A program made the position numbers and the translations under genes. From contig NC_061781.1 of NCBI RefSeq assembly GCF_022458985.1, positions 13,109,501 through 13,173,500 on the forward strand: a stretch of DNA of 64,000 nucleotides. Direction: 5' to 3'. Under the pieces are notes generated by a model. That model was not told the DNA's origin, did not search any database, and saw only the letters and a list, made by a program, of their open reading frames with translations. This DNA comes from Mugil cephalus. Taxonomy: Eukaryota > Chordata > Actinopteri > Mugiliformes > Mugilidae. Below are positions 42,301-45,300 of this stretch, piece by piece (position 1 is the stretch's first letter; each line of letters begins with the position of its first letter).

Positions 42301-45300
42301 CATTTGTTCAAAAGTGTGAAATCAACAGATGGCCCGCTCGAGACTCTCGGACAATCCCCGCGTGCGTGATGCATCGTGGGCAGTGGTGTGGGGTACCTTT
42401 GACGGGCAGCTCCACAGTGCTGTTCATGTTACACAGGCGGCCGTGGCAGCACTCGACGATTTGGTCTCTGGACGGCGGGGTCTTGCAGGTCAGCGTGCTC
42501 TGCTCGTAGACCTTAAAGCAGCCCTTCTGGTACACCAGGGAGCCCGCATTGACTGTCAGAGAAGAGAAGCACTGGTGGCCCATGCAGCGGCTCCCCGTCA
42601 CACACGAGCTGCCCTCGCACACGCACTCGTGCTCCTCCCTGGGGGGCTTCACCTCCTCCTCTGCAAGAGATTCAGGAAACAAAACGTTAAATACGATCAT
42701 AAAGAGATGTTAAGCGAGCGGAACTTCCGCACGATCTCAAGTAACGGCGAACGGCGGCCGACAGAAACGTGCGCGGCGGGTACAAAGTCACCTTTCCCCG
42801 GAGCTTGCACAGTCACGTTCATGTTACACAGATGGCCCTGGCAGCACTTGACAACGCGGACCGACGAGGGCGGCGTGGCACAGGTGGCTCTGCCCTCCTC
42901 GTCGTCCCTCAGGCAGCCCTTGTGCTGGACGGCTGCCCCGTCAATCATCTTCAGCGAGGAGAAACACTGCTGGCCCGTGCAGCGAGGGCCGCGCTCGCAC
43001 GCGCCGCCCTCGCACACGCACTCCTGGTCCCGGAGGACCGGTCTGCCGGCAGACGGCTGCACATCTGATAAGAGGAAACAAGAGATATAGGGAAACCCAT
43101 TAGAGCAATGCGATTAGTAGCCCATTAAATTAAATGGCATTCACTCACATCAGAAAAACGTGCAGGTTGGAAAAATCTCTTAGATAGTCAGACACTGAAG
43201 AGGCAGCCGGAGTCTAGTTTAGATGTAGCAGGAAATACTCTTTCAAATAAGCAAATATAGAGTGGGTTTCAGTGTTTTCCAGAAGCAGAGTGTGTTGAGG
43301 AAGTCCACCCGAACGGATTCAAATTTGGACATGGAGATATGCTGCTTTCTCTGTGTAATTAGTTAAAGAAGTCAAGCTTTTGTGTTTTAAACCGGGCAGT
43401 TCTAATAAGAATATGAGTCTGGTACCACACCATTGGATTTCATTACGGGGCGGTTTTAAACAAGACAGAGAAAAACGGCCTCTGGATACAACTGGATAGT
43501 CCTGCAACCGAAGAGAGCAGTAAACTAATTCAACTCAATGGTTCTCAGATGTCGTCGTTTCTCCTCTTTACGTCCGTCAGAGAACAATCAGTTCCCAACG
43601 GAGCGACTCCGGACCAACTTTTCCCACACGCACGTATATTGTGGAGCGCTGGCTTCCAGGCTTGACACTCTATACTGAAAACGATACTTTAATTTACAGA
43701 TACTGCAGTCAACTCGAGTGTCAGGAGCACAGATGTTTGGACACATTTTTTGTTCCTCAGGCTCTGTGTCTCATCATATTTTAAACAAAATAATAGATAC
43801 CACATAAAAGAGGCAGTTTGTGTAGGTTTATTGAAAGATTGGAGAAATTTCAAAGTCAACTTTCTGGCTTCAATCCACTGACTCTCCATCACCTGAGCAC
43901 ACTCATTTATTTAAGCTCCACCCAGGCCTCTTTGAAACTTCAAGTCTGGTTTCTAGCCAGGAGAACACAGCTCAGACTAAAATTAGGTGACAGACTTCGC
44001 GACTGGAGGACATCTTCTCCCTGGAAATCTCTTTGTTTGCTTCGTATGTCTGAGTCTGTTGTCTTGCGGGGGGATAAACTGCCGCCCAGCAACGTTTGAT
44101 GCGCTTGGCTGACTATGAGAGCGCGGGATGCTCCTTTATACCTTTTAATTCATCCTGTCGCTTCCGCAAGCAGTTATATCACCAGCGATTGCCAGTGTGG
44201 CTGTTCCCTTGGCAGCCATACATCCCTAAGCCGTAACAGAGGCATCACAGCGTTTGACAGATGAGGTGGCATGCCTTGAGTCATGAGCTGTTCCATTTCT
44301 TTTCTCCACGCTGCTCTAAAAAAACTCAAGTCTAGAACTGACGCCCAAACCTTGTAAACCGCCGCCAAAGACCGAGTGCTGACAACCAGCATTACCAGTT
44401 GACTGGTGTTTATTTTAAGTCACATTCCTGGTGCTGATTTTTAGGCAGGACGATCCACGTGTTTTTTTATTTTTTTTTGTTTGTTTTTTTAACATCACTG
44501 TCTTAACCAACACCTCACCTTTCTCTGGGGACGGCAGGGAGGTGTTCATGTTGCACAAGTGTCCACTGCAGCACTCCACCGCCAGCTCCGGAGTGGGCGA
44601 GCTCCCGCAGCCCGAGGCCCCGCCGTCGCTACCCACGACGCAGCCCTTCCGAAGGGCCGACGTCCCGTTCCGCGTAGAGAGCGAGGTGAAGCACCGCTGG
44701 CCAAAACACCGGTCCGCGCCGCCGCAGGACGCTCCGTCGCACACGCACTCGTTTCTCACGCTGCCGTCGCCTGCGAGGGGAAAACGGTTATGTAACAGCT
44801 GACCAAAAACGCGAGCTACAAATGTGCCCCCTTCTGTTTTTGCGACAGCTGAAAACCATCAGCTGTTTATCCCTCTTCTAAGCGGTGTGTGCATATTGCA
44901 AACTTTATGGAAAAGTGTGGTCTGCCAACCTTACGCAGCAGTTTTTTTAACATAACACAGACGGACACCAGATGAGAGGGAGACAGACAAAAGGAGGGGA
45001 GGTGAAAAAGGAAAAAAATGTGTGACTTTTTGTCTGTGCATGCAAGGGGCTTGAGGGGGGGACAGGGAGAGACGTAGAGGTTGCAACACTGAACTAGATT
45101 GAAAGAGAAAGGAGGGTTGCAGATGTCCAGTGCACATTTTTAGCCACTGCACTCGGGACCTTTGTGTCTTCCCTACTGTAATCTGGCTTTTTGCAGTAAC
45201 GAGGCTGCGATAACTGCTCGCTCAGGGCCACGTCCTGCCTGTATACGCTAGCAGAATGCTTCCCCCCTGCCTTCGCTTCAGCCACAGATCTCTTTAGAGG

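Follow-up and report, generated by a model that had tools for sequence, protein, structure and literature searches.

A triple ectodomain in the acvr1 (ALK2) gene of Mugil cephalus, a further example of a published receptor form

Overview

The acvr1 gene of Mugil cephalus contains three consecutive ectodomain exons, referred to here as A, B and C, where vertebrate type I receptors would be expected to have one. The triple ectodomain is real and probably functional, and it adds one more case to a receptor form already published from other fishes. We consider it highly likely that this is the orthologous teleost triple-domain acvr1 (ALK2), in which C is the conventional domain, A and B act as modulators and the main product is one receptor with three domains in tandem. 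Fibrodysplasia ossificans progressiva, a condition in which ACVR1 is the mutated receptor, is modelled in fish; for such models it matters that a three-domain ACVR1 stands beside a one-domain ACVR1L, a pairing that also bears on the tolerance of a conserved signalling system for additional domains.

Structure of the acvr1 Gene

The window, that is, the whole 64,000-nt stretch of DNA analyzed, corresponds to C12:13109501-13173500, and the searched genome comprised 24 contigs with a total of 635 Mb. Positions are given in window coordinates, with position 1 as the first letter. The coding span of acvr1 runs from 45379 to 33310 on the minus strand and consists of the following exons:

45313..45379, minus strand: signal-peptide exon, coding part (ATG at 45379, 22 codons and one base, donor GTAAGC)
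44519..44770, minus strand: ectodomain exon A, outermost (252 nt; Pfam, PDB, gene model)
42792..43064, minus strand: ectodomain exon B, middle (273 nt; Pfam, PDB, gene model)
42397..42660, minus strand: ectodomain exon C, membrane-proximal, conventional domain (264 nt; Pfam, PDB, gene model)
40402..40607, minus strand: transmembrane and juxtamembrane exon (gene model)
37210..37309, minus strand: GS-box exon (gene model)
35747..35893, minus strand: kinase exon 1 (gene model)
35233..35508, minus strand: kinase exon 2, with HRDLK (gene model)
34359..34556, minus strand: kinase exon 3 (gene model)
33550..33680, minus strand: kinase exon 4 (gene model)
33310..33444, minus strand: last coding exon (stop TGA at 33310-33312)

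The signal exon, the three ectodomain exons, the transmembrane exon and the six exons that follow join in frame into a complete type I receptor with a GS box and a whole serine/threonine kinase, as expected of ACVR1 (ALK2). With A, B and C all used, the gene model predicts a protein of 682 residues, in which the arginine equivalent to R206, encoded by the GS-box exon, is residue 379. The signal exon was chosen as the more hydrophobic of two candidates found in the scan; the less hydrophobic one (48984-49032) was set aside.

All three ectodomain exons are phase 1-1, with the first full codon starting after two bases, and contain no stop in that frame. Each encodes ten cysteines at identical spacing, lies between an AG and a GT, and has AAAG as its last four bases ahead of the donor. 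The Pfam profile Activin_recp matched A, B and C with scores of 30.9, 30.5 and 37.6 bits, respectively, against a cut-off of 20.9, and the best PDB matches of each were 7yru and 9n4k (Activin receptor type-1), both entries of the human ACVR1 ectodomain. Three consecutive single-exon Activin_recp domains within acvr1 make this a triple-domain ACVR1. An earlier note on this DNA, written from the letters alone, had placed three such exons after a single signal-peptide exon and ahead of a single transmembrane exon, and had proposed that the gene could encode receptors with one, two or three tandem ectodomains; its coordinates and lengths proved exact, the gene model bears out the position, and all eight subsets of A, B and C keep the frame to the same stop.

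Downstream of acvr1 and in the same orientation lies another type I receptor gene (17785-25658, minus strand); its ectodomain exon occupies 25428-25637, its kinase pieces run from approximately 21973 to 17785, and we take it to be acvr1c-like.

Relation to Published Triple-Domain Receptors

The earlier note knew of no vertebrate description of this arrangement, a claim that does not hold: it was reported for medaka in 2023 and has since been described for all Clupeocephala. In the first of these studies, three ligand-binding domains were described in medaka olaAcvr1, which was cloned and expressed (Trumpp et al. 2023, PLoS ONE; PMC10501582). As presented there, the full-length construct, obtained from cDNA, holds all three domains, and the Halo-tagged protein runs at 130 kDa, as compared to 100-110 kDa for single-domain receptors. 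At least two medaka acvr1 transcripts are described, both with an elongated N-terminus, and alternative splicing is mentioned as giving variants whose ligand-binding domains are altered (PMC10501582). The same paper numbers the R206 equivalent as R379 and elsewhere as R378, and gives 61.8% identity between the olaAcvr1 domain and human ACVR1, for a stretch not defined alongside that value. The second study reports the ACVR1 triplication as common to all Clupeocephala, with individual domains lost within Clupeoidei; it describes ACVR1L of medaka and zebrafish as having one domain, and ACVR1L triplication as unique to bonytongues (Jatzlau et al. 2026, Nat Commun; PMC13187141).

The M. cephalus gene agrees with that of medaka in its three domains, its apparently single-domain acvr1l, the R206 equivalent at 379 and an identity to the human ACVR1 domain of 62% for exon C, against the 61.8% reported (PMC10501582). 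The medaka work has a cloned and expressed full-length cDNA behind it, whereas our description is of genomic sequence alone. Agreement with the clupeocephalan triplication extends to the gene, the number of domains and the use of one exon per domain. The latter work (PMC13187141) goes further with an evolutionary tree and with tests of binding and signalling, which as described concern BMPR2 and TGFBR2 multimers and not single ACVR1 domains; the present analysis contributes another genome, with the splice signals of each exon and the divergence of the contact loop. As for the paralogue, an acvr1l-like gene on C17 showed one Activin_recp match together with acvr1-like GS-box and kinase pieces, as in the one-domain form, the domain count being a lower bound from a six-frame search of the genome that scored only the 24 best candidates and gave 6 matches.

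Divergence of the Three Domains

The copies were compared over the 77 residues shared by A, B, C and human ACVR1. Identity was 33/77 between A and B, 32/77 between A and C, and 42/77 between B and C (42-55%), with DNA identities of 55-68%. Relative to human ACVR1, A is the most diverged (35/77), followed by B (41/77) and C (48/77). These distances settle whether one exon was collapsed or misplaced in the assembly and so appears more than once. The earlier note had itself named assembly duplication of C as fatal to its reading, and copies this different in DNA and protein cannot be assembly copies. No direct repeat family of at least 20 nt was reported in 40600-45400, and the arrangement has been published from other fishes (PMC10501582, PMC13187141), leaving an assembly artefact with a negligible probability. 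A domain tree built on 7 rows and 77 columns gave support for none of its four inner branches and so yields no order of duplication.

The change between copies is concentrated between cysteines 6 and 7, where only 1 to 3 of 11 residues are identical. The first segment retains 9-11 of 18 residues, the segment between cysteines 5 and 6 retains 7-9 of 17 and the last retains 11-13 of 21. The earlier note had placed the focus of change in the central finger. Identity to human ACVR1 in the same interval falls from 7/11 in C to 4/11 in B and 2/11 in A, while the other segments differ less.

This segment aligns with the beta4-beta5 loop of BMPR-IA, in which Phe85-Gln86 is described as a hot spot for BMP-2 binding (PMC2946932). 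In alignments read by eye, human ACVR1 has M-T at this pair of positions; C has L-T there, B has A-T and A has S-G. Such divergence of the contact loop suggests that C would bind ligand in the usual way, and B and A less or not at all. A loss of the contact loop that is graded from C to A is one point raised by the genome that can be tested. AlphaFold models of A and B, built from four-row alignments, had mean pLDDT values of 48.1 and 51.5, respectively, too poor to show the fold.

Evidence of Selection

Between copies, dN/dS was 0.32, 0.33 and 0.33, values that are only rough because dS (0.96-1.61) is close to saturation. A neutral simulation was run in three sets of 5,000, starting from C, C and B and halting at the observed DNA identity, under a crude model with no indels, uniform rates and transitions making up half of the changes. 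The frame stayed open in 6-10% of runs, but in none of the 15,000 did it do so with every one of the ten cysteines kept. The protein identity of the real copies was at the neutral maximum for C to B (42) and above it for C to A (32 vs. a maximum of 31); for B to A, the observed 33/77 lay inside the neutral range (mean 23.9, maximum 35). The absence of intact domains from the neutral runs, together with a dN/dS of about 0.33, supports selection on the copies, as the earlier note had argued in preference to decay, and all three domains appear to be under selection.

These results bear on whether A and B might be relics, exons with intact frames that are skipped or drift while C is the sole working domain. 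Their greater distance from human ACVR1, their mostly changed contact loop and the ACVR1 domain losses reported within Clupeoidei (PMC13187141) would fit such a history. Decay is hard to reconcile with the retention in both exons of 10/10 cysteines, an open frame and splice sites, a combination of cysteines and frame that none of the neutral runs produced; the donors of A and B are also stronger than that of C, and the three-domain form has been cloned from medaka cDNA (PMC10501582). We therefore consider relics very unlikely.

Splice Signals and Possible Isoforms

Donor sites were scored with a rough matrix (maximum 12.6), which gave 11.1 for A, 8.2 for B and 3.7 for C. By this rough measure the donor of C (42391-42396, AAG|GTACCC) is the weakest of the ten in acvr1, though C is the conventional domain, and 9.5% of the gene's GT sites reach or exceed its score. 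The earlier description of good splice sites stands for the AG and GT at all three exons and is qualified by the low score of the donor of C. With such a donor, some transcripts may lack C, and the weak site is a second testable point from the genome.

These signals raise the question of whether A, B and C are alternative ectodomains, used one or two at a time so that ligand preference varies with splicing. The isoforms of Drosophila Baboon differ in an ectodomain exon. Like acvr1 on this reading, Baboon is one type I receptor gene with several alternative ectodomains. Its three isoforms have been suggested to prefer different activin-like ligands (PMC10847725). A cassette of this kind would be consistent with the in-frame joining of every subset, with the concentration of change in the ligand-contact loop, with the weak donor of C as scored by the rough matrix, and with the medaka variants whose ligand-binding domains are altered by alternative splicing (PMC10501582). 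Single-domain splice forms of TGFBR2 are likewise described in chicken and horse, but as marginal ones (PMC13187141). Baboon isoforms are alternatives, whereas the published medaka construct carries its domains in tandem, all three of them in the full-length form (PMC10501582). Nor was any feature found that would enforce exclusive use of A, B or C among those checked: the B-C intron is 131 nt long, the exon lengths are multiples of three, and no U12-type donor motif was found across the gene. Four inverted repeats considered as RNA pairings that could enforce exon choice were 73-76% complementary, none of them convincing. On balance, we regard selection among the three domains by splicing as unlikely.

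A related proposal, to which we give a small chance, is that besides the three-domain form there may be regulated isoforms with different subsets of A, B and C, some of them skipping C through its weak donor. If true, teleost acvr1 would be a Baboon-like selector of ligand response.

Proposed Mode of Action and Other Multi-Domain Receptors

Under the preferred reading, one receptor with three tandem domains, the acvr1 ectodomain exon would have tripled deep in teleost history. The main product would most likely be a single type I BMP/activin receptor whose ectodomain strings together three three-finger domains, from A at the outer end to C at the membrane. C would keep the conventional ligand-binding surface and assemble the signalling complex. 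A and B have kept the cysteine frame, with most of the beta4-beta5 ligand-contact loop replaced, so that standard binding of the same ligands has probably been lost in both; they would instead tune the access, avidity or output of C. Ordinary signalling would be covered by the single-domain paralogue acvr1l.

Published experiments bear on such a division of labor. Medaka Acvr1 is reported to show the top baseline reporter activity and the strongest effect of BMP6, and the authors suggest that three domains bind better (PMC10501582), which favors avidity over inhibition. According to PMC13187141, the membrane-proximal domain carries binding and the outer domains lower signalling in elephant-nose fish BMPR2 and zebrafish Tgfbr2a; the outer domain leaves function unimpaired in horse and frog TGFBR2, and either domain alone suffices in chicken TGFBR2. 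TGFBR2 with two or more domains, described in zebrafish, chicken, horse and salmonids, resembles acvr1 as a TGF-beta family receptor with tandemly duplicated ectodomains, and its outer copies have diverged in some lineages (PMC13187141). It differs in being a type II receptor whose domain is spread over two exons and was multiplied in independent events, and the chicken copies differ further in being nearly identical (PMC13187141).

tgfbr2 and Other Loci in the Genome

At C11:22054712-22059756, on the minus strand, lies a tgfbr2-like gene whose ectodomain exon pair occurs four times in tandem. The search with PF08917 (12 matches among 17 scored candidates) recovered four copies of each of the two exon types at this locus, with a single pair on C12 and another on C14. 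The cores of the C11 copies are 70-80% identical. All four second exons are 191 nt long and open, followed by a GT donor; the donor pattern was matched by three of the four first exons. One kinase piece lies approximately 12 kb downstream in the same orientation, and the other kinase motifs looked for in two stretches were not found, so that the gene may be incomplete. Published fish TGFBR2 multiplications are those of Clupeoidei, Cyprinoidei, Esociformes and Salmoninae (PMC13187141), and the C11 multiplication would be a new independent event if the species lies outside these four groups.

Searching the genome with the domain of exon C also returned a weak match at C4:19856050-19856232 (E 0.009, 35% identity) with five internal stops, which may be a chance match or a dead copy, and six further matches with E values from 0.57 to 6.2. 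Comparison of parvalbumin and haemoglobin pieces with PDB chains did not place the species: the best parvalbumin matches tied, the first of them a carp protein, and 3bcq, a characiform haemoglobin, matched the beta piece best. For the alpha piece, six long chains, apparently engineered human ones, ranked above 3bcq, and each of the five alignments displayed contains two copies. Finally, a large haemoglobin cluster was observed at C20:15692975-15743432, in which globin exons of the plus and minus strands are largely interleaved, and three globin matches were located on C16.
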